From a virus: 64,000 bases of DNA. Below the pieces are notes generated by a model. That model saw nothing but the letters and a program-made list of their open reading frames with translations. It was not told the DNA's origin and did not search any database. Each line of letters starts with the position of its first letter. The first letter of the stretch is position 1. The stretch is from positions 1 through 64,000 of the IMG/VR virus record IMGVR_UViG_3300043409_000928, one strand, 5' to 3'. A program made the translations under genes and the position numbers. This document shows positions 22,410 through 45,825 of this stretch, in pieces.

Positions 22410-22441
22410 TTTGGTCTCCGTAAAAAAACAACCATTGCACA

Positions 22442-22470
22442 ATTATACAATGGTTGTTTTAGGTTGTCAA
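22442..22470 (-). promoter_or_regulatory. Sigma-70 promoter
   Basis: Minus strand TTGACA, 17 bp, TATAAT, upstream of the SGNH hydrolase. Confidence 0.85.
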
Positions 22471-22471
22471 C

Positions 22472-23617: not shown

Positions 23618-23647
23618 ACCAATACTTATCGTCGAAGTTACGAGCAA

Positions 23648-24286: not shown

Positions 24287-24351
24287 TATATTACTTATTG
24301 GGAAAATTCTGGTGTAAAATTCAGATAATTAACTTATACAAGGAGTTTACG

Positions 24352-25254
24352 ATGAAGTTAAAAATATTGCTGTCCAGTTTATTAATCAGTGGAAGTGCCA
24401 TTGCTGGTCCAGTAGAATTTACGGTTACACATGCACCGGGTGGACCAAGTGATACCACCACACGCTTACTGGCCAAAACAGTGGGCGGTAATGAATTTGT
24501 AGTTGTTAATAGGCCAGGTGCTGGTGGTGCCATTGCTGTCAAGCAATTGTTGGACGAAAAGACCGTTTTGGTAGCAACTATGAGCCAAATCTATGTTACC
24601 AATCCCGTGCTATTTCCCAACCTAGGTTACGACCCAGACACTGATTTAGAACTAATTGGCGTTGTGGCAAGTATGCCCAGTGTGCTGGTATGCAATTCTA
24701 ATAAGAATATAAATTCCATCGGCGACTTGGCCAAAAGCCGATCACTTAACTTTGGTGTAGCAGGGTATGGAAGCAGTGAACATTTGGCAACTGAAGTGCT
24801 GTTTAAAAAATTAAAAGCCAATCACCTGGCTGTTCCTTATAGCAAGGGTGGTACTGCCGCAGTACAAGACATGTTGGGTGGAAACATTGATTGTATGTTT
24901 GCAAACTATCCGGTGGTAAGTGAGTGGGTTGGTAACAGTCGATTGAAGTTTATCATGAGCAGTCATGACTTGGGTCTTAAAGTTCCAACTTGGAAGTCTA
25001 GCTTTGCTGAGCCATTCCCATTTGAAAGCTACCTAGGATTAGTTGTTGCTCGTTCAATGAACGAAGCTGACAAGGAAGTGCTGAAGGCAAAGTTTACTCA
25101 AGCGTTTGGCAATAAAGAACTTGCAACTGCGTTGTCTAGGGCGGGCCTATTCCCTGTGCTTGCAATGGATAAGAAGTCTGTTGAAGCCGGGCTGTATAAC
25201 AATACAAAATTAAGAACGTTCATTTTACAGAACAATATTAAAATATCCAACTAA
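24352..25254 (+). CDS. Bug/TctC-type periplasmic solute-binding protein
   Basis: 300 aa from ATG 24352, 7 nt after AAGGAG. Signal peptide MKLKILLSSLLISGSAIAG, then the family pattern VTHAPGGPSDTTTRLLA, NRPGAGGAIAVKQL and VPYSKGGTAAVQDMLGGNIDC. These proteins bind carboxylates for tripartite tricarboxylate transporters and are greatly expanded in Burkholderiales. Full length. No transporter membrane subunit is nearby, so it would have to work with host TctAB or as a sensor ligand-binder. Confidence 0.88.
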   Translation: MKLKILLSSLLISGSAIAGPVEFTVTHAPGGPSDTTTRLLAKTVGGNEFVVVNRPGAGGAIAVKQLLDEKTVLVATMSQIYVTNPVLFPNLGYDPDTDLELIGVVASMPSVLVCNSNKNINSIGDLAKSRSLNFGVAGYGSSEHLATEVLFKKLKANHLAVPYSKGGTAAVQDMLGGNIDCMFANYPVVSEWVGNSRLKFIMSSHDLGLKVPTWKSSFAEPFPFESYLGLVVARSMNEADKEVLKAKFTQAFGNKELATALSRAGLFPVLAMDKKSVEAGLYNNTKLRTFILQNNIKISN

Positions 25255-26460
25255 TTATCGTATCCACAAACAGTCGGACTGTAAGTTTGCAATAGGTCCT
25301 AGGCTGTAGGTATGTGAAACTACAACAAGCCCGTCAACGTCCTTGGCTGGATCTTGTTGTTTTTTAATGAAAGGTGTTAGGTTATTTTTAATATAATTAA
25401 TGCCCTCTAACCATACCTGGCCAGCTCTAGTGTCTTTGTATAGATCTAGAAACCATCCATCAAATTCACTGCTCCAATCATACACAGCTTTCTTTGCCTG
25501 GAACCAGTTGGGATTCCATGTGGTGTATAACAGTCCACGAAGTAGTGGATCATGATGAAGTCTATACACTTCAGTGGTAACATATGAAGTGTCCCAAATT
25601 TTTTGATTTTCAGGAAATGCTTCTAACCATCGTTTAATTACGTGCCCTTGCTTGATTATAAGCTCTGGCATGTCTGGAGTCCAGTAAAAGAACTCAACAG
25701 TACTATTTGGATACTCTTTTAGGTGTTCTGCTACAGTAATCATATTGGTAGTACGATCGCTGAATGTCATCAACAGTTCTCCGCGGTGGAGTTGCGTTCT
25801 TGGCTTTTCAATACCAACTACAATAGCAATCTTATGATCCTTGTCAAACTTTTTTCGAATCTCAGAAAAGTGTAGAAAGTTAAAGCGGGTCATACCTGCT
25901 GGGTTTAAACCTTCACGCTTGTTTAGTACCCAACTGGCATCACCTGCGGTTTCGAGTTCTGCAAATAGTGCATCACTACAGTCTGTAATTGTAATTTTTG
26001 TTTTAGGCATCCAGGTTGAAATTTCTTTTAACCTGGGAATAGTATTCAAATTGTGTTCTGACTCGGGTGCATTGTATGCATCTGTATTGGAAGGATCAAT
26101 TATCATTGCAGATGAACTGGCCTTGGTCATTGTGTTGGTAATAATCTCATCAATGTGCAGTCCTTGCCGATAAAAGCTCATTAAGATGTTATGGCTATCG
26201 GCACCGCCTGAATAACTTAAAATGAGGTAATCGTATTGCTCGCGCAACTGTCGAGCACGTTGGTCATACAACTGGTCTAATGACTGCTCGGGCTCTTTTT
26301 TCCAATCGTACTTGTTGAACTCGTCATTGTTAAAAACCCAAGTAACTGGCTTCTTTACTTCCATTGCATATATACATGCACGAATTTTTGAATCAAACTC
26401 TAGGTCACCTACAATATAGTATCCAAGTTTTTTATTAATATATGGGTTGTGTATTCTCAT
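25255..26460 (-). CDS. PP-loop ATPase (asparagine-synthetase-like domain), 401 aa
   Basis: The PP-loop SGGADS at residues 84-89 (ILSYSGGADSHNILM) marks an ATP-pyrophosphatase that adenylates its substrate. No N-terminal glutaminase domain; the first 80 residues are a small beta-rich cap. The C-terminal half contains conserved-looking WTPDMPELIIKQGHVIKRWL. Its ATG overlaps the stop of the next PP-loop gene (ATGA), so two such enzymes are made as a pair. The product may be an amide or a thio group. Confidence 0.78.
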   Translation of the reverse strand: MRIHNPYINKKLGYYIVGDLEFDSKIRACIYAMEVKKPVTWVFNNDEFNKYDWKKEPEQSLDQLYDQRARQLREQYDYLILSYSGGADSHNILMSFYRQGLHIDEIITNTMTKASSSAMIIDPSNTDAYNAPESEHNLNTIPRLKEISTWMPKTKITITDCSDALFAELETAGDASWVLNKREGLNPAGMTRFNFLHFSEIRKKFDKDHKIAIVVGIEKPRTQLHRGELLMTFSDRTTNMITVAEHLKEYPNSTVEFFYWTPDMPELIIKQGHVIKRWLEAFPENQKIWDTSYVTTEVYRLHHDPLLRGLLYTTWNPNWFQAKKAVYDWSSEFDGWFLDLYKDTRAGQVWLEGINYIKNNLTPFIKKQQDPAKDVDGLVVVSHTYSLGPIANLQSDCLWIR

Positions 26461-27398
26461 AGTTGCGTGAACCGTTTTACTTTGTCAGAGGACCAATTGC
26501 TTAGATGTGTTATTAGTTCATCACGTGGAACAAACACACATTTATTTTTATAGTTATGACGAAGTCGAGTGTCAGTTGGATTCATTATAAAGTCTACTTT
26601 CTCAGAGCTAACATACTTTGGAAAAATTTCTAATTCCTGACCCCAATACATTCCGTATATGATTGGTTTTACGTAGTATTCCCAACTGAAGATCAATGGA
26701 GGTGGCTCTCCTGTTTCTTTGTCTACTAGTCCGTTTCCTTTAATGTATTCCAATGCATTGATATAGCCGGTAACTACTGGATCACTTAGGTATGCCAAAG
26801 CAAAGTTATTAAATGGCGCCCTACGGTCAATACAAACAATCTTTCCCGACCGCACAACCTGCTTTAATGCTCGTTGGCTCGCAACTTCAATTGCAGTCCA
26901 TGACTCCATACAGTATGCTTTACCTTGCCTGAAGACAAAATCAAAACTTTCAATTCCTTGGCAAAAATCTCGATCTTTGGGTAATTGAGCCAGGAACTTT
27001 TTCATCATGTGATGTTCGGCTGGAATGCCCGTGGATATTGCATTTGCTTCTATTTCTTCACGAATTGCAAATGGGTCTATTTCAACAATTGTACACTCAA
27101 ATCCGTATTTCTTTTCAAGTATCTTAATGTTATTGTATTCAAAATCATTGTAACCTGGATGATACATGAATGCACACTCGTATGGCAAACCCAGCGTGTG
27201 AAATGTGTGCAGTAGCACTTGGCTGTCTAGGCCACTGGTAAGACTTATTAAAACTTTGCTTTGTGCTTCATTAGCAAGTCTAGTACATGACTTTTCCATT
27301 TCCTGCCGGACTGTGCCAATTGGTTCCGAGCAGGCTGTATATTCTACATAAAATTTGTCGTTGTCATCTAGACCATATATCATGCACTTACTTACCAA
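26457..27398 (-). CDS. PP-loop ATPase, 313 aa
   Basis: PP-loop variant SGLDS at residues 55-59 (LISLTSGLDSQVLLHTF), then EKKYGFECTIVEID, the usual second strand. A short N-terminal cap. Resembles the C-terminal domain of asparagine synthetase-like enzymes more than QueC. Coupled to the adjacent PP-loop gene and overlapped at its 5' end by a 59-aa gene. Confidence 0.75.
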   Translation of the reverse strand: MVSKCMIYGLDDNDKFYVEYTACSEPIGTVRQEMEKSCTRLANEAQSKVLISLTSGLDSQVLLHTFHTLGLPYECAFMYHPGYNDFEYNNIKILEKKYGFECTIVEIDPFAIREEIEANAISTGIPAEHHMMKKFLAQLPKDRDFCQGIESFDFVFRQGKAYCMESWTAIEVASQRALKQVVRSGKIVCIDRRAPFNNFALAYLSDPVVTGYINALEYIKGNGLVDKETGEPPPLIFSWEYYVKPIIYGMYWGQELEIFPKYVSSEKVDFIMNPTDTRLRHNYKNKCVFVPRDELITHLSNWSSDKVKRFTQL

Positions 27399-27571
27399 CT
27401 GCCGTTGTCAACAACTATCCTGACTGATAGCACGAGTATCTGTACTACAACTTCTCGACGACCGGGGCACGGCCATTCAGCCTTGGTTGGATCAATGCAG
27501 TAAGAAATACGCCAATGAAATGGATTACAAATTAATGTAACCCATATGCCACTGTATCTAAACCAATCCAT
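27392..27571 (-). CDS. Hypothetical protein, 59 aa
   Basis: Start ATG 27571 (MDWFRYSGIWVTLICNPFHW), overlapping the stop of the phosphatase gene (TAATG); the end overlaps the PP-loop gene by 7 nt. Aromatic and hydrophobic N-terminus, beta-like C-terminus. Probably an operon member; function unknown. Confidence 0.6.
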   Translation of the reverse strand: MDWFRYSGIWVTLICNPFHWRISYCIDPTKAEWPCPGRREVVVQILVLSVRIVVDNGSW

Positions 27572-28089
27572 TAAATATTCCCTTCGTGCTTGGGCATTAT
27601 AAAACCCCACTCATTTGTGGTGCCATGCACATCGTAGGACTTTTCTTCACTGTCATAAGTCCAACCCAGCTCTCGCATCATTTTGTGCTTGACCAATAAG
27701 TTAGGAATACGAAAACGTTCGCAATCTGCAAAGCCCATCATGACACCAACTTCTACTACTGCGCCGCTACGGCAAATGCCTGCATGGCAGTGAACCACAA
27801 CATTCATACGATTTTCCCAAGCATGTTTCAACAAGCGAACCAGCTCAACAGCCTGTGCGTCTGTGATAGCAAACTCACTCATGTCAATAGTCTTACCATC
27901 ACCGGTATTGGTCATGCCATCTTCTTCAATATCCAAAAATGTAAATTGGTGCACTTCTTTGAACTCATGACGGGGTGTAGGAAATGCCATGTCGTGATCC
28001 GAAATTTGAATCAACATGCTGTTGGCACCGCAATCGTGGTGGCGCCCAGCGGCTACATTTTCTAAAGGTATGTTTTCAATCCAGGGCAT
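27571..28089 (-). CDS. Dual-specificity/tyrosine phosphatase-like protein, 172 aa
   Basis: The catalytic P-loop HCHAGICRSG has Cys101 and Arg107 (C-x5-R), and DIEEDG may supply the general acid. The length suits a minimal DSP-like phosphatase. It heads a run of genes (59-aa, two PP-loop). Could dephosphorylate a small molecule, protein or RNA end; not determinable from sequence. Confidence 0.85.
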   Translation of the reverse strand: MPWIENIPLENVAAGRHHDCGANSMLIQISDHDMAFPTPRHEFKEVHQFTFLDIEEDGMTNTGDGKTIDMSEFAITDAQAVELVRLLKHAWENRMNVVVHCHAGICRSGAVVEVGVMMGFADCERFRIPNLLVKHKMMRELGWTYDSEEKSYDVHGTTNEWGFIMPKHEGNI

Positions 28090-28099
28090 GTTCTTCTCC

Positions 28100-29581
28100 T
28101 TATAACGACATTAATAGTTGTATGTACTCGGTCAGCCGCTTGTCTTTTGCTGTGACCAGTTCAAAACGAGTCCATTTATTTTTATTTTCTTTTAAAAATC
28201 TATCTTCACTGAATCCAAGTTGAAGTAATTGCAGTATTGACCATGATCCGTGATAGGCATTAGTGGTCAGATTTATCTCCGTTATTGTTTCTTTAAGAAA
28301 TTTGCTAGTTTCTTTAAAACTCCAATAATCGTTATGCCAATTTCCACGATCTTGTTTGATAGGAAAAAAGTAACCGTATTTTTCTTTTTCTTTTTCAAAC
28401 TCACTTGGATTTCGAATCAATGATGTTGTATCGTCGGTAGCCATCATACCCAGGCAATGCCAGGAAATATTGTACAGGTTATTATCATTGAACCAGTGTG
28501 CTGTGCTCTTGATACTTTCTCTAGTGTCACCGGGTAGTCCAATGATAAAACTTAGTGTCTGGTGTATCTTGCCTTTCCAGATATTATGATAAAGTTCTGG
28601 TATATACTCTCGGGCTCGTTTCCCACTCCAACCTTTGCCTATACTGGCCGATGCTTGTTCTCCTAGTGTTTCAATACCATGAAACGTGCTTATCATTCCA
28701 GTTTCTTGCAGTATGTGAGGAACGTCGTCAAATCGCTCCAGTAGGTCGGCTCGTATATAAGATGTAAACTTAATTTTGAATGGTAAACTAGTAATCATGT
28801 CATGCCAAGCTTTCATCTTGTATTCTGTATCGTTGAAAGTGTCGCATATAACGTAGTACAGTTGTGTACCAAAGTTTTCATAGTTACTCAACATCTCTTC
28901 TTTGACCAAGTCAAAGCTTCTAAGGTAGTCTAGCTTTCCTCGACCTAATAATAGGTGATTACAAAATTTACACTTGAAGATACATCCTCGACTTATTTCA
29001 ACTGGTAGTGCTTCGCCTGGTAATATTGCATCTTGTTTGACAAATCTAAAATTGTCAGTTTCAATGTTAAAGTTTTCATGTATTGGTACTGAGTAAACTT
29101 TATATGTTTGACTTGTAATTCTTGTGTTCTCTAATGTATAAGCAGGCTCATCACCGTGTCCTGAGATATGCTTCAGGACATCTACAAATATATCTTCACC
29201 ATATTTTGAAACAACTGAATGAATATTTTGTATTGTTGAGAGTGTCAATCCTGAAAGACCGTAGCCACCAAATATTAATTTTAGATTTGGATATTTTGCT
29301 GTAATGTGATTCAAAGCCAGTGTAAAACTTGCTGTAAATTGCATCTGACCAACGGTAGGTGTAAGGAATGTTGTACTGACACCCAGTACTAATGTGTCAT
29401 TGGAAACAAATTTTTCCAGTGCTGCCACAAGTTGATCATAAGAAAAATAAACCACATGATCAATAACTTGTGCTGTGTATCCGGCTTGCCTTACTGAGTG
29501 AGCAATTTTATATGCGCCCAGAGTACGATACATTGTAATGTTACTAACGTCTGGTCCAGTGTTAAGAATAACAACATCCAT
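28100..29581 (-). CDS. B12-binding-type radical SAM protein, 493 aa
   Basis: Residues 1-150 form a Rossmann-like B12-binding-type domain (MDVVILNTGP, KLIFGGYG). The radical SAM motif is Cys200, Cys204 and Cys207 in ISRGCIFKCKFCNH, and LSFIGLPGDTRESI is typical of the barrel's later strands. Such enzymes do methylation or C-C bond chemistry on unactivated carbons. The B12-binding DxHxxG signature is not clear, so cobalamin binding is uncertain. Strongest candidate for an unusual modification. Confidence 0.85.
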   Translation of the reverse strand: MDVVILNTGPDVSNITMYRTLGAYKIAHSVRQAGYTAQVIDHVVYFSYDQLVAALEKFVSNDTLVLGVSTTFLTPTVGQMQFTASFTLALNHITAKYPNLKLIFGGYGLSGLTLSTIQNIHSVVSKYGEDIFVDVLKHISGHGDEPAYTLENTRITSQTYKVYSVPIHENFNIETDNFRFVKQDAILPGEALPVEISRGCIFKCKFCNHLLLGRGKLDYLRSFDLVKEEMLSNYENFGTQLYYVICDTFNDTEYKMKAWHDMITSLPFKIKFTSYIRADLLERFDDVPHILQETGMISTFHGIETLGEQASASIGKGWSGKRAREYIPELYHNIWKGKIHQTLSFIIGLPGDTRESIKSTAHWFNDNNLYNISWHCLGMMATDDTTSLIRNPSEFEKEKEKYGYFFPIKQDRGNWHNDYWSFKETSKFLKETITEINLTTNAYHGSWSILQLLQLGFSEDRFLKENKNKWTRFELVTAKDKRLTEYIQLLMSL

Positions 29582-29631
29582 TTACTTTTATTCCTTGAAA
29601 ATTTAGTGGCTGTGTTACTTATTGTAATGGC

Positions 29632-29660
29632 TCCAGTGGCTGGGATCGAACTCAGGCTGA
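29632..29660 (-). pseudogene. tRNA 3'-half remnant
   Basis: GAGTTCGATCCC T-arm-like sequence beside tRNA-Asn without a matching 5' half. Probably a leftover of tRNA duplication or recombination. Confidence 0.4.
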
Positions 29661-29668
29661 GAAGTATA

Positions 29669-29744
29669 TGGCTGGCAAACCTGGGCTCGAACCAGGGACA
29701 TTTCGGTTAACAGCCGAACGCTCTACCAACTGAGCTATATGCCA
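29669..29744 (-). tRNA. tRNA-Asn(GTT)
   Basis: Acceptor TGGCATA/TTTGCCA (one T-T mismatch), discriminator G, CCA. Loop CTGTTAA. Confidence 0.93.
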
Positions 29745-29759
29745 ATAATAAATTTAATT

Positions 29760-29891
29760 CACTTTATAGGTGCTCTCTGTGACGCTTGAATTCACGGTAG
29801 CCCTGCTCTTCCTGGCACCTCTTGACCTGCTCGAGACTAGTCAAGTGCAGTGTTGTTCCAGTGTAGCTACTCAGAAAGCACGTATAAAGTG
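29760..29891 (-). ncRNA. Stem-closed element G
   Basis: A 20-position terminal stem (CACTTTATA..TGCT against AGCA..TATAAAGTG) with 18 matches encloses about 90 nt without a gene. Confidence 0.5.
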
Positions 29892-30085
29892 TCCGGCTAC
29901 TCACACCACATGAGCCCCGGACTGAGCGGTTACTCTGTCCATAACATTTTTCTTATGGGATGGCGTTATACCACACCCCAGGCAGTTTCCAGTATCCCAT
30001 ATAGTGGGACTGTGAGGTCAGGTCCTAGTGTACCCCCTGTTCTCTCGTTTCAGGGACGCTGTTTTATAACGCAAAACAGTAAACC
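29891..30085 (-). ncRNA. Structured element, family 2 copy H
   Basis: A GTCCGG/CCGGAC hairpin, the block TGAGCGGTTACTCTGTCCAT (plus strand), a GTTTCCAG block and a terminal hairpin CTGTTTT/AAAACAG. The same ordered blocks occur at 32581-32764, where the hairpin is CTATTTT/AAAATAG, a compensatory change. No ORF. Confidence 0.55.
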
Positions 30086-30088
30086 GGG

Positions 30089-30322
30089 TTATTTAATTTT
30101 ACGCATATAGTTTTTTACATTTATTTCGCCTGAATTAAATTCAAGCAATGCAGTTACCGGTGCGTTAAATTGTTCTGTCTTTCCATCATTCCTATGCTGG
30201 CTTGCTAGTTCTCTTGCTCGAGCAGATGCCATAAGAATCAGATTAAACTTGTTTCCGCCTGCATTTTCAATGCATACCTCCACATCAATTTCTGTGCCGC
30301 GACTTAGTGATTTAGAATGCAT
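30089..30322 (-). CDS. rpoZ: RNA polymerase omega subunit-like protein (RpoZ)
   Basis: 77 aa. NKFNLILMASARARELA matches the first conserved block of omega (NRFDLVLVAARRARQ in E. coli), and APVTALLEFNSGEIN matches the second. Omega helps assemble core RNA polymerase around the beta-prime C-terminus. The phage copy lacks the long acidic tail. Lies within tRNA array 2, next to tRNA-Gly. May retune the host polymerase for phage promoters. Confidence 0.82.
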   Translation of the reverse strand: MHSKSLSRGTEIDVEVCIENAGGNKFNLILMASARARELASQHRNDGKTEQFNAPVTALLEFNSGEINVKNYMRKIK

Positions 30323-30348
30323 TGTTTGCCTTTGTTGTTAACTACTCA

Positions 30349-30422
30349 TGGAGCGGGATAAGAGAATCGAACTCTTGACCGAAGATTGGAAATCTGCTGT
30401 TTTACCATTAAACTAATCCCGC
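30349..30422 (-). tRNA. tRNA-Gly(TCC)
   Basis: Acceptor GCGGGAT/ATCCCGC, discriminator T, CCA. Loop TTTCCAA. Overlaps the 3' end of the 30413-30955 gene by 10 nt. Confidence 0.92.
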
Positions 30423-30955
30423 CAATGCACACCACCTACCTGTGTCAAACGTAATGCTATGCTGACTCTGGTATCAGTTACGCCTGATACGTTATGTAGA
30501 ATATTCGAGTGAAGCATCACCCATTTTCTTAACGGCACTATAGTCGAATAACATTTTTCGAGGTCGTCAAACACAGTTGTATTTGCTATGCTAGCTTTTC
30601 TAATTAAAGGAAATCCCTTTTCTATGAACCAATTTGTCTGAACATCTATGCCCCCTTGATCCAGGATATAAAAAATAGTAGTTTCACCTGCCGCGTCTGT
30701 GTGAGGAGCTTTAGTTCCGTATGGGGGGAGAATTTCTTGAATAGAACTGTCACTTAACTGGTAACCATCCAGTTGAGGCACAATATTTGCTGTTATCCAA
30801 TCTTTCATTTTTGTTGACTGCCTGTATTTCATAAAACACTGTTGTCTAGCATAGTATTGAGAAGACAGTGAAATACAGGAATATGCGTCTTGTTCTAGAT
30901 CATATGGTAAGGGTGGATAATCTAATTCTTTATAAAAATCTTCAGGACTAAACAT
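30413..30955 (-). CDS. 2OG-Fe(II) oxygenase-like protein, 180 aa
   Basis: His-x-Asp in KAPHTDAAGETTIFYIL and the distal His in SNILHNVSGVTDTRVSIALRL with Arg for 2-oxoglutarate. The core strands and spacing match the 52705-53289 gene, so the two are paralogues. AGGAGAAAAAG-like leader supports the start. Target unknown; protein or nucleotide hydroxylation is possible. Confidence 0.72.
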   Translation of the reverse strand: MFSPEDFYKELDYPPLPYDLEQDAYSCISLSSQYYARQQCFMKYRQSTKMKDWITANIVPQLDGYQLSDSSIQEILPPYGTKAPHTDAAGETTIFYILDQGGIDVQTNWFIEKGFPLIRKASIANTTVFDDLEKCYSTIVPLRKWVMLHSNILHNVSGVTDTRVSIALRLTQVGGVHWRD

Positions 30956-30977
30956 TACTTTTTCTCCGTTTTAAACT

Positions 30978-31054
30978 TGGTCGGAGTACTAGGATTCGAA
31001 CCTAGGACCTCATCGTCCCAAACGATGCGAACTACCGGGCTGTTCTACACTCCG
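30978..31054 (-). tRNA. tRNA-Pro(TGG)
   Basis: Acceptor CGGAGTG/TACTCCG, discriminator A, CCA. Loop TTTGGGA. Confidence 0.94.
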
Positions 31055-31061
31055 ACATAAC

Positions 31062-31136
31062 TGGTTGCAGGGGATGGATTCGAACCACCGATCTTCAGCT
31101 TATGAGACTGACGAGTTGCCACTTCTCTACCCCGCG
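31062..31136 (-). tRNA. Initiator tRNA-fMet(CAT)
   Basis: Acceptor CGCGGGG/CCCTGCA leaves the C1-A72 mismatch diagnostic of initiators, and D-stem pair A11-U24 is present. Loop CTCATAA. The anticodon stem (TCAGT/GCTGA) lacks the usual three G-C pairs. Confidence 0.92.
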
Positions 31137-31155
31137 ATAACTTACTAACTTTAAC

Positions 31156-31231
31156 TGGTGCCGCTTGTCGGATTCGAACTGACCACCTGCCGCTTACAAG
31201 GCGGCTGCTCTACCAAATGAGCTAAAGCGGC
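31156..31231 (-). tRNA. tRNA-Thr(TGT)
   Basis: Acceptor GCCGCTT/AAGCGGC, discriminator A, CCA. Loop CTTGTAA. Confidence 0.95.
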
Positions 31232-31260
31232 GAAACTTTTATAACCTTACTTATGTGTGC

Positions 31261-31335
31261 TGGTGCGCGGTGAGAGTTTCGAACTCCCGACCCTCTCGGT
31301 GTAAACGAGACGCTCTACCACTGAGCTAACCGCGC
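31261..31335 (-). tRNA. tRNA-Val(TAC)
   Basis: Acceptor GCGCGGT/ACCGCGC, discriminator A, CCA. Loop TTTACAC. Confidence 0.95.
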
Positions 31336-31345
31336 CGTTGATTTA

Positions 31346-31786
31346 TTAATCACCTAGATATTCGTAATTGGTTGACTCAGTGTTTTCTCTAAAAACAATA
31401 GCACCATTTTTTGTATGAAACCTTTTGGCCATCTCTGTTTTAGGACTCAGTGTAACAAATCTTTTAATATGTGTCTTGTGCTGTTGTATATGCTTCACTG
31501 CATCAAATATCAACTGTTTACCAGCGCCTGGCTTGTAACTCCAGATTGTATAAAATACTGCTGTGTCTGGTTCCTCTGAACTTTCAAACAATTGATCTTC
31601 GCTGGTGGGAATTCCAATTTGGTAACTCACACAAGTAATGGCTCGTGCTATATCATTTTCATCTCTTAAAACAAAAATGTCTTTGTTATCGCCCATGCGC
31701 TCTACAGTAGGAATATGCGGGCGTACTGGATCGTCCTTGAGATATTCTGCAAGTTTTTCACTTAGATTTTGAAGAAGGTATAACAT
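31346..31786 (-). CDS. GNAT-like acetyltransferase-type phage protein, 146 aa
   Basis: DIFVLRDENDIARAITCVSY, then AVFYTIWSYKPGAGKQLIFDA (motif A-like loop PGAGKQ) and FVTLSPKTEMAKRFHTKNGA with a terminal TNYEYLGD. The order of strands and the acetyl-CoA-type loop fit the GNAT fold. Proteins like this are recurrent in T4-like phages of aquatic bacteria as I recall. Substrate unknown. Confidence 0.72.
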   Translation of the reverse strand: MLYLLQNLSEKLAEYLKDDPVRPHIPTVERMGDNKDIFVLRDENDIARAITCVSYQIGIPTSEDQLFESSEEPDTAVFYTIWSYKPGAGKQLIFDAVKHIQQHKTHIKRFVTLSPKTEMAKRFHTKNGAIVFRENTESTNYEYLGD

Positions 31787-31961
31787 CAGAGTTACTTAGT
31801 CGTTTATAATTGTTATTGCTATCATCTTTGATAACTGCTTCGGCTTGGTTCTCACCTTCAGCCTTTTTCTTTTTTCCAAACGCCAATTCCCAATTGCTTG
31901 TAAATGTATCTTCATCTACACTCTTTGGTCTTGGCGCGGATCCTTTGCCAGCTTCTTGCAT
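31758..31961 (-). CDS. Lys/Asn-rich hypothetical protein, 67 aa
   Basis: Low-complexity, charged and probably disordered (GKKKKAEGENQAEAVIKDD). AAAGGAAAG precedes the ATG. Overlaps the start of the acetyltransferase-like gene by 29 nt. Confidence 0.62.
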   Translation of the reverse strand: MQEAGKGSAPRPKSVDEDTFTSNWELAFGKKKKAEGENQAEAVIKDDSNNNYKRLSNSDVIPSSKSK

Positions 31962-31982
31962 ACTAACTTTCCTTTAAAATAG

Positions 31983-32058
31983 TGGTGGAGGTGACAAGGA
32001 TCGAACTTGCGACATCCAGCTTGCAAAGCTGGCGCTCTCCCAACTGAGCTACACCCCC
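31983..32058 (-). tRNA. tRNA-Ala(TGC)
   Basis: Acceptor GGGGGTG/CACCTCC, discriminator A, CCA. Loop TTTGCAA. Confidence 0.95.
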
Positions 32059-32079
32059 AAAAATTTTATGATTTGCACC

Positions 32080-32161
32080 ATAGAAAAACACACTCAAGTC
32101 CGCGGCACGGAAGGCACTATACCCGCGATGGCTTTTGACCAGGCCTAGTGTGTTTATCTAT
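32080..32161 (-). ncRNA. Stem-closed structured element, family 1 copy A2
   Basis: ATAGAAAAACACACT pairs with AGTGTGTTTATCTAT with the same single A-A mismatch as at 19657-19787. The loop (with an inner CGCGG/CCGCG stem) is unrelated in sequence. The conserved ends and variable interior suggest a mobile or modular RNA unit. Confidence 0.6.
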
Positions 32162-32167
32162 AGTTAG

Positions 32168-32272
32168 CATATTGAAACACACTATACAACAGGTTTAGGT
32201 CTGCTTCTGTATCCTGCTACGGCCGAGTATGAAGTTATCTCTGGACCTATGCCGTAATGTGTTTTAATATGC
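32168..32272 (-). ncRNA. Stem-closed element C
   Basis: GCATATTGAAACACACTA pairs with TAATGTGTTTTAATATGC at 16 of 18 positions, enclosing about 70 nt. It adjoins element A2; the AAACACA core of its stem matches family 1. Confidence 0.5.
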
Positions 32273-32464
32273 TCTGCGAACCCCGGTGGTAATTGTAGTG
32301 CATCCTCTCCCGGGTTACCCCAGTACGACCTCACCTTCCACCCACTTCCCGGCAGGTTCCGTTAACGCATTGCCAGCGGCCTTTTGGTTCGAAGACTACC
32401 ACCCGTGGTTGTCACACCACTTCTCATCCTGCGGGTCACAGTATCCGACGACACTCGGAACGTC
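32273..32464 (-). ncRNA. Noncoding structured-looking stretch D
   Basis: About 190 nt between element C and the second initiator-like tRNA. It shares short blocks with element B (CTTCGAA and ACCAAAA; CCCGGGT). No ORF and no terminal long stem found; its nature is unclear. Confidence 0.3.
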
Positions 32465-32540
32465 TGGTTGCGGGGCTTGGATTTGAACCAAGGATGGCAA
32501 TGGCTTATGAGACCACGCTGGTGACCAGGCCCTCCCCGCG
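32465..32540 (-). tRNA. Second initiator-like tRNA(CAT), aberrant D-arm
   Basis: Acceptor CGCGGGG/CCCCGCA again leaves C1-A72 unpaired, discriminator A, CCA; loop CTCATAA; T-arm CTTGG/CCAAG. The D region folds as CTGG-TCA-CCAG, without the canonical D-loop GG, and the anticodon sits two positions early. Confidence 0.8.
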
Positions 32541-32580
32541 ATTAGGATTAAGCTACTGGTTTCCACACCAGCCCTTAAAT

Positions 32581-32764
32581 TGAGCAGTTACTCTGTCCAT
32601 CTCATTTATTCAAAGTCTGTGTGCAGTTGAGATTCTGCCTATCAGAGTCTGCGAGGGTAGTTTCCAGCCTCACGCTTACGGTTTTCTGCCACCGGATCTC
32701 TATCGCTAATCAAACGCTATTTTAACGAAAATAGTAACGGGATAGATGGGCTCAGTTACAAACT
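32581..32764 (-). ncRNA. Structured element, family 2 copy I
   Basis: TGAGCAGTTACTCTGTCCAT (plus strand), GTTTCCAG and the terminal CTATTTT/AAAATAG hairpin match copy H in order. CCATCT/AGATGG closes it. The promoter at 32871-32899 points into it on the minus strand. Confidence 0.55.
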
Positions 32765-32767
32765 GAT

Positions 32768-32860
32768 TTAATGCTCCCTGCTCGGCGTTTTGACTTGCAT
32801 CCTTTTCAGGCTGACCTTCAAGGTCCATTTAATGCGTCCTGCTTTGCGTTCTGGAACCAC
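32768..32860. repeat. Tandem imperfect repeat in the leader of element I
   Basis: Two units that begin ATTTAATGC and share CCTGCT and GCGTT blocks, about 55 nt apart, between the promoter at 32871 and element I. Confidence 0.4.
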
Positions 32861-32870
32861 CCTAAACTCT

Positions 32871-32899
32871 ATTATAGCACCAATCAACGTGAGTGTCAA
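32871..32899 (-). promoter_or_regulatory. Sigma-70 promoter inside tRNA array 2
   Basis: Minus strand TTGACA, 17 bp, TATAAT, directed at element I and the downstream tRNAs. Confidence 0.8.
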
Positions 32900-32913
32900 T
32901 TGGTGCCAAATCT

Positions 32914-32988
32914 TGGCGACTCGTGGGAGAATCGAACTCCCGTAAGCGGATAGACAATCCGCAGTAATAACCTCTATACGAACGAGCC
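32914..32988 (-). tRNA. tRNA-Asp(GTC)
   Basis: Acceptor GGCTCGT/ACGAGTC, discriminator G, CCA. Loop TTGTCTA. Confidence 0.94.
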
Positions 32989-32995
32989 TAATTTC

Positions 32996-33080
32996 TGGTG
33001 CGACTGGCCGGAATCGAACCGGCACGCCCTTCAGCGAGAGATTTTAAGTCTCTTGTGTCTACCGATTTCACCACAGTCGC
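32996..33080 (-). tRNA. tRNA-Leu(TAA)
   Basis: Acceptor GCGACTG/CAGTCGC, discriminator A, CCA. Loop CTTAAAA with a normal long variable arm. Confidence 0.95.
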
Positions 33081-33082
33081 AA

Positions 33083-33301
33083 TACCATATGTAAAATTAC
33101 AAAGGAACTCCACTTACCTTGCAGGACCGTCTCCTGCTACTTCTGCTTCGTCATTACGCTCTAGTAAATCCTACCGTGCCATTTGGTGATGTTGCCATCC
33201 CTCAGCTTTCATATACACTACATTGAGCCAGCCCGTCAGCTGGTTATACTCAATACAGGTACCTAGCAGTACTAGTAACCTTTATAACTTTACATATGGT
33301 A
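33083..33301 (-). ncRNA. Stem-closed element J
   Basis: TACCATATGTAAA and TTTACATATGGTA form a 13-bp perfect stem around about 190 nt without a gene. The 5' side of the stem includes the discriminator and CCA of tRNA-Glu, as element A does for tRNA-Lys. Confidence 0.5.
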
Positions 33302-33371
33302 CTCGATAGGAGAATCGAACTCCTCTTTCCGGCGTGAAAGGCCAGCGTCCTAACCGATAGACGAATCGAGC
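33297..33371 (-). tRNA. tRNA-Glu(TTC)
   Basis: Acceptor GCTCGAT/ATCGAGT, discriminator A, CCA. Loop CTTTCAC. Its 3' end is part of the element J stem. Confidence 0.94.
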
Positions 33372-33430
33372 ACAAATGCCACCAAATTTTTAAAGAACAA
33401 TCACTTCAACTTTCGCTGTAGTGTTTGGTT

Positions 33431-33459
33431 ATTATATACGGACAATGCCGTAATGTCAA
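33431..33459 (-). promoter_or_regulatory. Sigma-70 promoter of tRNA array 2
   Basis: Minus strand TTGACA, 17 bp, TATAAT, upstream of tRNA-Glu; a palindrome lies 20 bp upstream of the -35. Confidence 0.85.
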
Positions 33460-33479
33460 CCGTTTTCTAACTTTCTTTT

Positions 33480-33495
33480 GTTGTATTTCTACAAC
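33480..33495. promoter_or_regulatory. Operator-like palindrome copy 5
   Basis: GTTGTATTTCTACAAC. A related CTGTATTGCTACAG lies nearby at 33515-33528. Confidence 0.6.
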
Positions 33496-33537
33496 AACTT
33501 TCAAACTGTTTCTACTGTATTGCTACAGTATGCCACT

Positions 33538-33566
33538 AGTATATGCTATCTACTGATTCCTGTCAA
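33538..33566 (-). promoter_or_regulatory. Sigma-70 promoter of tRNA array 2 (second)
   Basis: Minus strand TTGACA, 17 bp, TATACT; palindrome copy 6 lies 20 bp upstream. Confidence 0.75.
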
Positions 33567-33586
33567 CAACTATCTGCCTTTATTTT

Positions 33587-33602
33587 GTTGTATTTCTACA
33601 AC
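33587..33602. promoter_or_regulatory. Operator-like palindrome copy 6
   Basis: GTTGTATTTCTACAAC, identical to copy 5 and at the same distance from its promoter. Confidence 0.6.
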
Positions 33603-33607
33603 AAACT

Positions 33608-33681
33608 TGGAGCGGGATAGGAGAATCGAACTCCTGACTAAACCTTGGCAAGGTTTCGTTTGACCATTAAACTAATCCCGC
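33608..33681 (-). tRNA. tRNA-Gly(GCC)
   Basis: Acceptor GCGGGAT/ATCCCGC, discriminator T, CCA. Loop TTGCCAA. Acceptor and T-arm are nearly identical to tRNA-Gly(TCC), so a duplication. Confidence 0.94.
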
Positions 33682-37224: not shown

Positions 37225-39294
37225 TTAAAATACGCTACGGGCCATTATTGAAAATCCTGTTGCTTGTACTCCTGCGGCACCACCTGCATTGAACTGTCGT
37301 ACTACATTAAATCCAACACTTGTTTTATTAGTGTGTTTGACAGTATAACCAAGTACTAGATTCATTTCACGAACTTCTGGTGCCAAGCTTGAACGCATTG
37401 TTTGTGACTGTGGATTTGCAGTACTTGTTCCATCACCATTGTCGCTGTATGTGTAAGATGTGACTCCGGTTACTGTTGCGCCACCGCTTCGTACCTGCAC
37501 TGGTTGGGCAACAAATAATGTAATTGCATCATGTAATTTGCCTTGGTCAACAAACACTCGTTGTTGTGATGCACCCAGCTTCCAACTATCACTTACAAGT
37601 GTAGAATCCAATTGGATCATGCTACCTTGTACATTAGAGGTTTTGGTAAAGCCCACGGTATAATTGCCAATCAATGCGGTATTCTCAGCCACCTTGTAAC
37701 TGCCGCCTGCGCCGAACCAAGTGGTATTGCTACCACCAAATGCCATTGCGCCGCCACCTTGTGAACCAAGCACAGAGTTTGCTTCCTTCAAGGCACCCGC
37801 TTCAAAGCTTAACCGAGTACGCTCACTCTGTTGCCATTCATATTGAGTTGCAGTACCTGTGTCACTGGTCATCAGTGTTATTACACTATCTTTACCAAAT
37901 GGTACTGCCATGTGTCTATAGTTTGAAGAAGCCATGGACATCCACGGGCTGGCATATTGGTAACTCATTGAGTTGGTAAATGCCACTGCCTTTGTTAGGT
38001 TTGCAGTATAATTGCGGCCGATACTGTCAACCACTTGTGCGTTTTGTAACACTGAACTGGTGGCCAAACTAATTGCGCCAGATGTGGCTACTCCTGTGCC
38101 AGTGAGGCCAACTGTTTTGCCTTGTGGACCAGAGCCGTTGAGTTTGGTCATGTTGGCCAGTGTCACTGTGCCCATTGGCTGGGTGGCCTTATCAAAGTTT
38201 ACCATGCCACGGCCAGTCACATTTGAGTCTCCCATTGGAGTGGCTGTATTTAGAATCAATGAAACAATTTGTTCTGCCCTTAACTGTGGCCACGCCTGTT
38301 TCATCAATGCCACACCACCAGACACATAGGCAGTAGCACCACTGGATCCGGTAACTGGAATGGCACCGCTGGAGTTTGACTTTCCGTCAGCATCTTTCAA
38401 TCCATATTGGTTGGCCACTGAACCATACAACTGCATGCCAGGGGCGACAACATAGAAGTCCTTGACCAGATAAGGATCATTACAGGTAGAACCAGATATG
38501 TTATTGCAAATGGAACCGGCCTTGTTTGACGAAGTGGCAATGTTGCCGTTGGTGTCAGAATAGCCAACAATCAGCATCTTGCCACCCAGTACCAAATTAC
38601 CTTTGCTATCAACCTGTGTGGCAAACATTCCTGGTACCTGTGAGTATGCCAGTCCCTGATTGCCTGCGGCCGCAACAATGATACTTCCTCTGTTGGTACC
38701 TACGGCAAATGCTTGAACATCAGTGACACTGTAACCATACAATGATCCATATGCGGCAGGCGCTTTATAAATTCCTGCAGACATTTGGGAGATGCCTTTG
38801 GTAAAAGTTGAATCAAACGTAGATCCTAAACTCAGGTTAATAACCGATGCGCCGTTGGCACTGGCCCAATCCACTGCTTGCTTGACTGCGGTAAAATTAA
38901 TGCCAGTTGTCTTGCCACCAGAACCAACTTGGGCCAGCAATAGGCTTGCATCAGGTGCCGCGCCAACAGTGCCTGAATCATTTTTATTGGCGGCCGCAAT
39001 GCCAGCCATCATTGTTCCATGATGGCCCCAAGTTACCACGGATGCGGGATTATAGAAATTTTTACTGCCAACAATTTTATTGGCAAAGTCTGCGTGAGTT
39101 AAATCAAAGCCCTGGTCAACAATGGCAATTGTTATACCTTTGCCAGTGAACCCTCTGGACCAGGCAATGGGTACACCTGTTTTTGCAAGTGCAGTTGAGA
39201 TTTCCTGCGCTTCATAATTTAGTGCTTTGGTCTGTGCGTAGGCTGTACTGCCTAGGGCCAATAAAATTGCTAAGGTTAGTGCTTTGAGTTTCAT
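37225..39294 (-). CDS. Secreted S8 subtilase with barrel-like C-terminus, 689 aa
   Basis: Signal peptide MKLKALTLAILLALGSTAYA. The subtilisin triad is visible: Asp60 in AIVDQGFD, His92 in GHHGTMMAGIAA and Ser in TGSSGATAYVSGGVALM near residue 325; NLSLGS and AAAGNQG are family blocks. The last about 240 residues are beta-rich with alternating polarity and end in a C-terminal Phe (FSIMARSVF), as in autotransporter or outer-membrane barrels. Very unusual for a lytic phage; probably bacterial in origin. Confidence 0.87.
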   Translation of the reverse strand: MKLKALTLAILLALGSTAYAQTKALNYEAQEISTALAKTGVPIAWSRGFTGKGITIAIVDQGFDLTHADFANKIVGSKNFYNPASVVTWGHHGTMMAGIAAANKNDSGTVGAAPDASLLLAQVGSGGKTTGINFTAVKQAVDWASANGASVINLSLGSTFDSTFTKGISQMSAGIYKAPAAYGSLYGYSVTDVQAFAVGTNRGSIIVAAAGNQGLAYSQVPGMFATQVDSKGNLVLGGKMLIVGYSDTNGNIATSSNKAGSICNNISGSTCNDPYLVKDFYVVAPGMQLYGSVANQYGLKDADGKSNSSGAIPVTGSSGATAYVSGGVALMKQAWPQLRAEQIVSLILNTATPMGDSNVTGRGMVNFDKATQPMGTVTLANMTKLNGSGPQGKTVGLTGTGVATSGAISLATSSVLQNAQVVDSIGRNYTANLTKAVAFTNSMSYQYASPWMSMASSNYRHMAVPFGKDSVITLMTSDTGTATQYEWQQSERTRLSFEAGALKEANSVLGSQGGGAMAFGGSNTTWFGAGGSYKVAENTALIGNYTVGFTKTSNVQGSMIQLDSTLVSDSWKLGASQQRVFVDQGKLHDAITLFVAQPVQVRSGGATVTGVTSYTYSDNGDGTSTANPQSQTMRSSLAPEVREMNLVLGYTVKHTNKTSVGFNVVRQFNAGGAAGVQATGFSIMARSVF

Positions 39295-42978: not shown

Positions 42979-43008
42979 ATTATAGCACAAATTGGGCAGT
43001 GAAGTCAA
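42979..43008 (-). promoter_or_regulatory. Sigma-70 promoter
   Basis: Minus strand TTGACT, 18 bp, TATAAT, with a palindrome 2 bp upstream of the -35. Confidence 0.72.
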
Positions 43009-43010
43009 CC

Positions 43011-43026
43011 GTTGTGAAAATACAAC
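43011..43026. promoter_or_regulatory. Operator-like palindrome copy 7
   Basis: GTTGTGAAAATACAAC, abutting the -35 of the HD gene promoter and the tmRNA terminator. Confidence 0.55.
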
Positions 43027-43033
43027 AAGAAGA

Positions 43034-43051
43034 AACCCGCCGAAGCGGGTT
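43034..43051 (-). terminator. tmRNA terminator
   Basis: Minus strand AACCCGC, tetraloop TTCG, GCGGGTT followed by TCTTCTTGTT. Confidence 0.88.
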
Positions 43052-43054
43052 CTG

Positions 43055-43210
43055 AGTTTCTGTTACGAGGTATGTCTTACCCTAAGTGGCTGTTAGGCCG
43101 CTAATGCGAACTGTGAGTCGTTTGCTTTTACTTTATTTCTTCTTTTTACATCGTTGCTGATGTGCTGTCCACTTGTTTACTTGTTGCCCTGTCGAAACCA
43201 TGACTGGCCC
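43055..43210 (-). ncRNA. ssrA: Permuted tmRNA, coding piece (tag ANDSQFALAA)
   Basis: Begins GGGCCAGTCATGGTTTCGAC, the tmRNA 5' end. It contains a resume codon and tag frame at 43125-43093 reading A-N-D-S-Q-F-A-L-A-A-stop. GGGCCAG pairs with CTGGTCC of the acceptor piece upstream and creates the G3-U70 pair that marks alanine tRNA and tmRNA. The piece follows its acceptor half, as in two-piece tmRNAs of alphaproteobacteria and some betaproteobacteria. The 3' end is approximate. Confidence 0.92.
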
Positions 43211-43211
43211 A

Positions 43212-43295
43212 TCAAAAAAGGACTATAAAGAATACTACTATCAGTACGATAGATAGAACTCCACATACGAGTTGATACAGATATTCACTATCCAT
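43212..43295 (-). CDS. 27-aa membrane micro-protein in the tmRNA intervening segment
   Basis: Reads MDSEYLYQLVCGVLSIVL and ends in VVFFIVLF: an acidic start followed by one long transmembrane helix. ATG lies 5 nt after AAGGGGA; the frame starts 13 nt after the acceptor CCA and its TGA ends 1 nt before the coding piece. It therefore fits exactly within the piece removed during tmRNA maturation. Function unknown; the length and topology match the other micro-proteins here. Confidence 0.6.
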   Translation of the reverse strand: MDSEYLYQLVCGVLSIVLIVVFFIVLF

Positions 43296-43307
43296 ACAAT
43301 CCCCTTT

Positions 43308-43390
43308 TGGTGGACCAGGCGGGAGTCGAACCCGCGTCCAGAACACTTTTCTCTTTGCTTCATACAGCAATAACTTACAGTATATACTTA
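43308..43390 (-). ncRNA. ssrA: Permuted tmRNA, acceptor piece
   Basis: Contains GGACGCGGGTTCGACTCC, the tmRNA T-arm signature, then the acceptor strand CTGGTCC, discriminator A and encoded CCA at 43310-43308. It lies 5' of the coding piece, which proves the circular permutation. The 5' boundary is not visible and is set approximately. Confidence 0.92.
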
Positions 43391-43403
43391 TTTGATCAGC
43401 AGG

Positions 43404-45146
43404 TCAAATCAATTTAAATAGGCCAAACGCACTGCCATTTTCGTTGCTGTATGCCAGATAGTTGACATTAGAATTTCCTGGAATAGAACTTGAACCAAAC
43501 CAGTATGATGCTCGTTCTTGTTCTGTAACAACTGCCCATGTACCGTCACCATCAATTACTTCGCCATCGCTGTCTCTATTCAGTACCCACTTTTGTGTAA
43601 TTGTAGATTCTGAGTTATACCACCATACTGATTCTGTTGGTACTAGTGGCTCAACAGTTCCTGAATAAATTCTATTCTCTGCGGCAAAGTATATGTTGGT
43701 TCCAAACTCATTTGTAATTCTTCTTTGGTAGCCTTCGTCTCCTGGAATACCGTTTGCATCTTCTAATAATTCTGCTGTTTCGAGTCTGCTCAATCCTTGA
43801 TTGAATTTTACTACCTTGCCATCTCCTCCAATCATTGGTTTCAAATCTGTTCCTACTTTACAAATATAAAATTCTGGAGCAACTGATGCTGGGACTAAAT
43901 TATTGGTTGTATCAAACGAAAATCCATTTAGTTCAGCACTTGGAATTGACAGTATATGATTGTATCCTCTATGCAATGTAATTTCAGGATTCCTGTTTAG
44001 GTAAACATCTTTACGACCATTGACCACTTGTTCACTTTGTACTCCTGTCACAGCCCAACAGTTTCTATCTGCAATCCATACAAAGTTAAAATTTGTCACT
44101 GGAGGATCAATGATTGCTTCGGCTGTGGCATCACCACCATCTTGTTCGTTACCAGAAATTGTGTTTGCGTTATATCCTATGAACTTTCCGCAATAGTCGT
44201 ACAATGGTTCTAGTTGAGCAAAGAATGGATCTTGTGGAGTCAGTGCCGCAATGGCCAAGGCATAAACATCTGGGCCAACAATGCTTGGCCAAATATTATT
44301 ATTTCTTATACCGTTAATATCTGCAGGATAGTTTGCTGTTTTTCCTAGGTTAGATACGATCGACTGTGCTTGTGCTGTTGCATCTTTTAAGTTGGGACTA
44401 TCAATAGGCGGGTATGGAGGATTCCATTTAACAGCGGGCGCAGATGCTATTGTTACTGGCTGTACGTCGGTGGTCTTATACGGCTTGCCAGTTTTTAAAT
44501 TTGTTTTGTGTCTAAAGTCAGGAAACAACTGTCTGTTGATTGATTTGTCAAGTGCTTTCTTAACTCCTTGTAATCTTTTAGTTAACTGGTCAATTTTTTG
44601 ACCTGGAATATTGGCCATCTTCCCGCCGTGCTTTTGAATACTACCAAGTATACTGCTTGGATTGTAAGAACCTGTATTAAGGCCGCCGTCGCCGTTTAAG
44701 CACAATTGTGGTTTTGTCAATCGACCAATGTCATTTAAGATTGCATTCATTTCAGCAAACTCGGCATCAATGATCTGGCTCAACACATCAGGGATTTTTG
44801 GCGCCTTGAGAGGAATTTTACATAGCCCATCTAACGCCAATAAACTTTGCACTTCTGCAATTGCACTGTTTACTCTGCCTAGTATTTCTTTTGCGCCAGA
44901 TAGATCTTCTAGTGCCTTTAACTGATCTTTGATGCCGCGCAGTTCATTTTGTAAATCTTTGATCGTAGGCAAGTCAGTATTTTCAGAAATTAATGCATCA
45001 AGGTCAAGCTTTATACATAACAAAGGACCTTTGAGCATGTTACTAAGACCACCAAACAGTATGGCACATATGATGTCCTTGATTGGTTTGTTCAAGATGC
45101 CTTTGGTCGCAACCTTAACGCCTGGGATAATTGGGATGTCTGCCAT
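43404..45146 (-). CDS. Baseplate-region structural protein, 580 aa
   Basis: N-terminal IPIIPGVKVATKGILNKP, a helical coiled-coil segment (TIKDLQNELRGIKDQLKALEDL), then beta-rich repeats ending in SEQVVNGRKDVYLNRNPEITL and a DGDGTWAVVTEQERASYWFGSS tail. Position next to peptidase and PAAR genes suggests a baseplate or tail-tip component. TATAAGTA late-type box at 45154-45161. No specific T4 counterpart recognised. Confidence 0.7.
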   Translation of the reverse strand: MADIPIIPGVKVATKGILNKPIKDIICAILFGGLSNMLKGPLLCIKLDLDALISENTDLPTIKDLQNELRGIKDQLKALEDLSGAKEILGRVNSAIAEVQSLLALDGLCKIPLKAPKIPDVLSQIIDAEFAEMNAILNDIGRLTKPQLCLNGDGGLNTGSYNPSSILGSIQKHGGKMANIPGQKIDQLTKRLQGVKKALDKSINRQLFPDFRHKTNLKTGKPYKTTDVQPVTIASAPAVKWNPPYPPIDSPNLKDATAQAQSIVSNLGKTANYPADINGIRNNNIWPSIVGPDVYALAIAALTPQDPFFAQLEPLYDYCGKFIGYNANTISGNEQDGGDATAEAIIDPPVTNFNFVWIADRNCWAVTGVQSEQVVNGRKDVYLNRNPEITLHRGYNHILSIPSAELNGFSFDTTNNLVPASVAPEFYICKVGTDLKPMIGGDGKVVKFNQGLSRLETAELLEDANGIPGDEGYQRRITNEFGTNIYFAAENRIYSGTVEPLVPTESVWWYNSESTITQKWVLNRDSDGEVIDGDGTWAVVTEQERASYWFGSSSIPGNSNVNYLAYSNENGSAFGLFKLI

Positions 45147-45153
45147 AGTGGAC

Positions 45154-45161
45154 TACTTATA
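45154..45161 (-). promoter_or_regulatory. Late promoter-like box
   Basis: TATAAGTA, one mismatch from the T4 late box, 7 nt before the ATG of the 580-aa gene. Confidence 0.4.
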
Positions 45162-45825
45162 CTAAATCTGAAGGGAGACCACCGCCGCTCCTGGCATGCC
45201 ATGTAAATGGATTACCACCAGTTCTAGTAACGCCAATTGCCGACGCCGCATTTGATGAGCCACCCAAGGCCACATGTGTCCAGTTGCCTTCAAACAACAA
45301 TTGACTGAACGGCAACCCAGCTGACCTTACAAATTTAAAGATTTTTTTGGCACCTTCAACCCCGCCAAGTGAAAGGTCAGCGGCACGACCCCAAGTGTGG
45401 TCACCGGTACCACTGCCACCAAGCTCTTTATCAAACGCACGAGTTCGATATCCTGAATTTATGTTTAGGGCTGGAAATTCTGCTTTGAGTGGATCAAGCA
45501 CCTGCTGGCAAAGCTTTTGCCAATTACATGCAATTTCAACAGCTGGACAAGATCCTTGACCATCAACAGGCTTGTATTTCATTTGGGAAAATCTGTAACT
45601 TTTACTACAGCCAGTATCCCATTGAGCATCTGTGTATGCTGTACAATCAGTTAAATCGACTGGTGGTGCAGGAGGTGGATCAGGACGATCTTTGTCACCA
45701 CCACCACCAGTTTTTTTCTGGTCTTCTGTGGCCGCAATATACCCAGCAGGCGTGTTATCGTAGTAAATTACTCCGCTTGGTGTCTTTTTGCGGCCGCCTT
45801 GGCCTGGTGATGTTGCTGTACACAT
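45157..45825 (-). CDS. Tail-associated M15 peptidase (D-Ala-D-Ala carboxypeptidase type), 222 aa
   Basis: A Pro/Gly-rich N-terminal half is followed by an M15-like zinc domain: NINSGYRTRAFDKELGGSGTGDH with His and GRAADLS with Asp, and WTHVALGG with the last His ligand. These enzymes cut peptidoglycan stem peptides. Its place in the baseplate block suggests local cell-wall opening during infection. Confidence 0.8.
   Translation of the reverse strand: MCTATSPGQGGRKKTPSGVIYYDNTPAGYIAATEDQKKTGGGGDKDRPDPPPAPPVDLTDCTAYTDAQWDTGCSKSYRFSQMKYKPVDGQGSCPAVEIACNWQKLCQQVLDPLKAEFPALNINSGYRTRAFDKELGGSGTGDHTWGRAADLSLGGVEGAKKIFKFVRSAGLPFSQLLFEGNWTHVALGGSSNAASAIGVTRTGGNPFTWHARSGGGLPSDLV

Follow-up and report, generated by a model that had tools for sequence, protein, structure and literature searches.

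Does the sequence between the two halves of a phage-encoded, circularly permuted tmRNA carry a gene of its own? The question is raised by a locus in the window, by which we mean the whole 64,000-nt stretch analysed here, which opens an IMG/VR virus record of 285,304 bp. Because gene callers pass over RNA genes and tmRNA spacers are regarded as waste, small phage proteins may have been overlooked by the dozen. From the sequence, we consider it quite probable that the transcript of this locus is bifunctional, the precursor of the rescue tmRNA being also the mRNA of a 27-residue, probably membrane-spanning microprotein, with the spacer as a cargo slot.

The tmRNA was identified by two routes. ARAGORN called a permuted tmRNA (tmRNA*) at 43002-43400 on the (-) strand with the tag ANDSQFALAA, and Rfam covariance models matched beta_tmRNA (RF01850) at 43421-43031 (-) with 132.2 bits (gathering score 84, E = 4.4e-40) and tmRNA_permuted (RF04321) at 43369-43093 (-) with 119.6 bits (gathering score 47, E = 9e-23). 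With these bit scores and E values, the two-piece tmRNA match is far beyond chance. A preliminary description had read the same architecture, an acceptor half preceding a coding half with its tag, from the letters alone and had proposed the covariance-model search; the letters it gave are all present and both programs agree with it. Its range of 43055-43390 was about right, although the Rfam match and the terminator widen the locus to about 43421-43031, and its interpretation as a two-piece tmRNA holds, but it did not mention the strand and overlooked the open reading frame (ORF) in the spacer. On the (-) strand, the acceptor half lies upstream of the coding half and the CCA is encoded in the DNA (43310-43308). 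The acceptor stem formed by GGGCCAG (43210-43204) and CTGGTCC has all seven of its seven pairs, including G3-U70, just as had been described. Sequence and model alignment also revealed a second helix joining the two pieces (TTGCTGT with ACAGCA), and the T-loop GGTTCGACTCC is uninterrupted, i.e. there is no group I intron at this site. In the close relative L241, TTGACA-17-TATAAT occupies the position equivalent to the promoter-like site of the window (Table 1). Judged by its sequence, the circularly permuted tmRNA gene of this T4-like jumbo phage is of the beta type and intact, and it has a promoter-like site and a terminator of its own.

Table 1. Features of the tmRNA locus in the window, and spacer contents of the related jumbo phages
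Feature	Position or locus	Strand	Basis or remark
Promoter-like site, sigma-70-like TTGACC-17-TATACT	43379..43407	-	10/12 consensus positions; just upstream of tmRNA; consensus match only
Acceptor piece: TTGCTGT segment, T-arm, acceptor 3' strand CTGGTCC, A, CCA	43308..43370	-	RF01850 and RF04321 alignments; putative 5' bound
Transcribed 97-nt spacer separating CCA from the coding piece, expected to be removed	43211..43307	-	flanked by the two halves of the model matches
SD-like AAGGGG of the spacer ORF, 5 nt upstream of ATG, inside 5' strand of spacer helix	43301..43306	-	sequence; fold
Spacer ORF, ATG...TGA, 27 codons, predicted hydrophobic microprotein MDSEYLYQLVCGVLSIVLIVVFFIVLF	43212..43295	-	sequence; relatives
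Spacer helix 3' strand, pairs with SD region, holds UGA stop	43211..43226	-	fold and covariation
Coding piece, 5' end GGGCCAG at 43210; 3' end approximate	43055..43210	-	RF01850 alignment
Tag reading frame ANDSQFALAA, with a protease signal at its end, and TAA	43093..43125	-	ARAGORN
Intrinsic terminator GAACCCGCTTCGGCGGGTTTCTTCTT	43027..43052	-	8-bp GC-rich stem, then T-rich tail
Short hydrophobic peptides in jumbo phage spacers	window, L171, L240, L126		
54-aa protein in jumbo phage spacer	L419		
83-aa membrane-like protein in jumbo phage spacer	L199		
68-aa protein in jumbo phage spacer	L269		
Jumbo phage spacers of 53-62 nt without ORF	L039, L150, L145		

The record encodes a T4-type DNA polymerase, head and portal proteins, SbcC/SbcD, a DnaB-like helicase and a late sigma factor, and we classify it as a T4-type jumbo phage. 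These T4-type genes, together with the Rfam and ARAGORN matches, support the earlier assignment of the two-piece tmRNA to a phage of this type. The nearest isolate polymerases, at 47-48% identity, are those of Sinorhizobium phage Phosso and Agrobacterium phage Atu_ph07. The beta type of the tmRNA points to a host among the betaproteobacteria, and a contig of a Burkholderiales metagenome-assembled genome (MAG) contains a stretch 80% identical to the phage ribonucleotide reductase. We detected no smpB in the record of the window phage, nor across the 13 phage records searched, and host SmpB would therefore be needed. The beta host type of the tmRNA would also fit a host gene caught through misassembly or at a prophage boundary, but we consider this extremely improbable: the flanks are phage genes, the record has the T4-type head, portal, polymerase and late sigma genes, nine further jumbo phage records carry a permuted tmRNA, and bacterial spacers look different. 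The window additionally holds 29 tRNA genes in two clusters (16821-33681, (-) strand), a large set for a phage that includes four tRNA-Met (CAT) and two tRNA-Trp. A sodium:solute symporter-family protein (10126-11562) and a subtilase-family protease (37225-39294) are odd phage cargo.

We then turn to the spacer ORF of the window, whose UGA stop ends 1 nt before the GGGCCAG of the coding piece. The sequence of the peptide (peak Kyte-Doolittle value of 3.35 over 17 residues) is suggestive of one membrane segment preceded by an acidic N-terminus. The product has no match to a Pfam or PHROG family and none among 50,697 cultured phage records, and near-identical peptides are found in L241, L249 and L443. 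As a guess, the peptide could modulate the host membrane. We also considered a holin or antiholin, i.e. a membrane protein of a lysis cassette: the peptide matches no such family in Pfam or PHROG, and a peptidase-M15 endolysin-like gene lies one gene away (45157-45825). Within the window's own 27-aa family, pN/pS is ∼0.5, a value that is not significant with only ∼5 differences counted. Given its short length, the window ORF taken by itself could be open by chance, and the case for it consequently rests on relatives. The plan recurs in many phages, typically as CCA-(T/A)AAGGAG-ATT-NGT-ATG ... TGA-T-GGGCC.

In L241 and L443, the coding half is down to 68% identity with that of the window, while the spacer is still 95-96% identical, as might be expected if the tmRNA were an inactive relic in which only the small genes are selected and the hairpin serves RNA stability. 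Against such a relic, the acceptor stem keeps pairing via compensatory changes across phages, the tag ANDSQFALAA is identical in L040, L102, L241, L419 and the window, and the window tmRNA scores 132 bits, so that decay strikes us as very unlikely.

The spacer has a structure of its own. Its two ends form a helix of ∼11 pairs, an extension of the acceptor stem. In spacers without an ORF, some freely varying helix positions pair at 87-88% compared with 40% expected (0.87 versus 0.40 for one pair). In spacers with an ORF, SD-like purines are retained in the 5' strand of the helix, G-U pairs are numerous, and the last codons and the stop lie in the 3' strand; the C-terminal residues of the spacer peptide are partly dictated by the helix. 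Folding of the window spacer with the CCA gave −29.5 kcal/mol (z = −4.1), and in the fold of the window precursor the SD lies inside the spacer helix (z = −4.0). As the SD is predicted to be paired, translation could be weak.

A rival account is that of an ordinary two-piece tmRNA in which the spacer serves as a processing hairpin without coding function and the ORF is a chance frame. In its favour, the spacer helix covaries, and its structure by itself places a UGA immediately ahead of the coding piece. We compared ORF frequencies with a null model of dinucleotide shuffles that keep both spacer ends. In a set of loci fetched by the acceptor arm only, the matches listed contained 91 permuted tmRNAs, which gave 70 non-redundant spacers. 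Among these, 21 of 70 were spanned by an ORF, compared with a mean of 1.9 and a maximum of 6 in 200 rounds of shuffling. The excess was also present across all loci (56 of 93 spacers versus 8.1 expected; this larger set includes loci picked for SD and ATG, yet not for an open frame), as well as for spacers ≥150 nt (21 of 40 versus 0.25 expected). The pattern of substitution points in the same direction. For a 24-aa family of 17 sequences, counting changes along a minimum spanning tree to limit double counting, we obtained 52/20/84 changes by codon position and a pN/pS of 0.30; in a 12-sequence subset, pN/pS was 0.19 in frame, compared with 1.02 and 2.25 in the other frames. For a 44-aa spacer family of the alpha type, pN/pS was 0.14.

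Some spacer ORFs moreover match known protein families. The spacer of L130 encodes an 84-aa thioredoxin with the WCGPC motif (PF00085, E = 4e-21), its ORF sitting within a 136-bit tmRNA_permuted match, and the L279 spacer protein matches PF14083 just above its cut-off. Candidate tRNA genes inside the spacers of L036 and L132 were dropped, as they looked like wrong half assignments. A chance frame would agree with the ∼70% of sampled phage spacers, among the matches listed, that have no spanning ORF, but not with the excess over shuffles, with purifying selection specific to one frame or with a thioredoxin inside a spacer, and we think it unlikely. The same ∼70% imply that the ORF is dispensable for the tmRNA, as most sampled spacers carry none. 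We conclude, from sequence comparison, that the spacer ORF is well supported and, as far as we searched, unreported.

The content of the spacer differs from phage to phage. All ten jumbo phages compared have a permuted tmRNA (the window phage plus nine records whose DNA polymerases share 56-59% identity with that of the window), and in seven of them, the window included, the spacer holds an ORF (Table 1). In alpha-type tmRNAs of marine phages, spacers of 174-183 nt contain two overlapping small frames (L157, L165, L172, L190, L223, L425, L429, L430, L433). The second of these frames encodes 40-44 aa and is membrane-like, with a WSICAD-like motif, an SD-like motif of its own and strong purifying selection. 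A 48-aa alpha peptide and the 64-aa and 84-aa spacer proteins were unmatched among the 50,697 cultured phage records; free-standing relatives of the 64-aa protein were found at a single locus, with 100% identity. As far as sequence can tell, the same site holds different small genes across phages, and the spacer is a cargo slot. Among the spacers without an ORF, those of L107, L116, L137, L139 and L144 include a stretch resembling a tRNA T-arm (e.g. GTGGTTCGATTCCACATAG), which may be what is left of a tRNA now serving as spacer.

Translation of the spacer need not mean that its product matters. In a leader-peptide device, translation would open the spacer helix and the acceptor stem, delay RNase P and tune the supply of tmRNA to ribosome availability, the peptide itself being inert. 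The SD and the stop lie within a helix stacked on the acceptor stem, and the stop is 1 nt from the start of the coding piece, as such a device would have it. Conservation of the amino-acid sequence speaks against an inert peptide, however, and a pure leader would have no use for cargo that ranges over very different proteins and includes a recognizable enzyme fold; we give this possibility a small chance of being correct.

For the preferred reading, a tmRNA precursor that doubles as the mRNA of a microprotein, we infer the following course of transcription, translation and processing, including their timing and coupling. Host RNA polymerase would make a single precursor, and ribosomes would load on the SD as the nascent RNA emerges, before the 3' strand of the helix exists. 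Translation would end at the UGA, a single nucleotide short of the coding piece; base pairing of the SD with the 3' spacer strand would then block further initiation. The acceptor and coding pieces would be freed by RNase P and 3'-end nucleases of the host and would pair with each other. Host AlaRS would charge the paired pieces, which would work together with the SmpB of the host, so that stalled products would be tagged for ClpXP-type proteolysis. The steps involving RNase P, AlaRS, SmpB and the protease are those expected from established tmRNA biology. More broadly, and only tentatively, phage two-piece tmRNA precursors might form a general bifunctional expression platform, with an exchangeable small-protein cassette translated briefly before helix closure; microprotein output and tmRNA maturation would then be mutually exclusive and would report ribosome supply in infection. 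If the microprotein is made, a single transcript would yield a small phage protein alongside the ribosome-rescue RNA, which would provide a handle on the purpose of phage tmRNA and a catalogue of small proteins chosen by position alone.

How does this locus compare with known systems? The preliminary description held a permuted tmRNA to be unusual in a lytic myovirus, a view that does not survive comparison with the literature: phage two-piece tmRNA is not new, being both published and common in IMG/VR. The two-piece ssrA of Methylophilales phage Melnitz was published in 2022, along with 133 unique tmRNA structures from 402 phages, 53 of them two-piece (PMC9004378), and 79 of the sequences in the tmRNA database come from phages (PMC11915505). 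Our acceptor-arm pattern matched at least 119 IMG/VR contigs, at least about 90 of which have a permuted tmRNA. Several cultured Xanthomonas, Stenotrophomonas, Alcaligenes and Rhodobacter phages also carry one, mostly unannotated as such. In L004, L005, L006 and L002 (Xanthomonas and Stenotrophomonas phages), the permuted tmRNAs are mostly unannotated or overlap a tRNA-Leu call, and some of the tags end in RIAA, ARYA or AIAA instead of ALAA. Xanthomonas and Stenotrophomonas hosts have a one-piece tmRNA. The Xanthomonas jumbo phage XacN1 (L444) has an unannotated permuted tmRNA with the tag ANANTFDYALAA (1976-2396) and, 1 kb downstream, an unannotated GOLLD RNA (3345-3758, 227 bits). Many phage tmRNAs have unusually long tags of up to ∼30 residues (L053, L092, L100, L105, L131; e.g. 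ANADTFDFSAMSFTGNTVRGAANESRFALAA). What appears to be novel is not the phage two-piece tmRNA itself, but protein genes between its two halves. We found no earlier report of an ORF in a permuted tmRNA spacer in the literature searched, which included few subscription papers and does not prove priority.

The window tmRNA resembles those of the RF04321 and RF01850 families in piece order, tag frame, G3-U70 acceptor and encoded CCA, and scores above the cut-offs of both. It differs from bacterial permuted tmRNAs in its spacer, which is 97 nt long with an ORF; the bacterial spacers we read are short hairpins without one. For this control we used 300 genomes sampled from the order of a Burkholderiales MAG and 299 sampled from a phylum. 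The bacterial permuted matches of ≥110 bits (n = 100) had a median span of 215 bases and a maximum of 332, Burkholderiales-type spacers that could be delimited measured ∼25-43 nt, and no ORF was seen among the spacers inspected by eye. Three long 'bacterial spacers' (L364, L375, L379) proved to be false pairings of halves.

Melnitz likewise has a two-piece tmRNA in a T4-type phage, but of the alpha type with a glutamine riboswitch, the window tmRNA being of the beta type. We found no description of a spacer ORF in the Melnitz paper (PMC9004378). In the Melnitz genome (MZ577097.1; L446, ∼885-1050), the spacer contains GGAGAAGTAT-ATG and the ORF runs on into the tmRNA coding piece; without a stop at the boundary, the excised spacer would be a non-stop message. 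Group I introns interrupt some tmRNA genes, some with a homing endonuclease gene (PMC11915505), and here, too, a protein gene lies within sequence removed from the tmRNA precursor. That intron is self-splicing and sits in the T-loop, whereas the phage genes occupy the permutation spacer between the CCA and the coding piece, and the spacer proteins with any match are not endonucleases. One permuted tmRNA carries a tRNA-Ala in its intervening sequence, and a repeat was likewise noted in a single spacer (PMC11915505). The tRNA-Ala is likewise a gene nested in a spacer, but it is an RNA gene and a single case; in phages, protein genes are found in ∼30% of sampled spacers among the matches listed.
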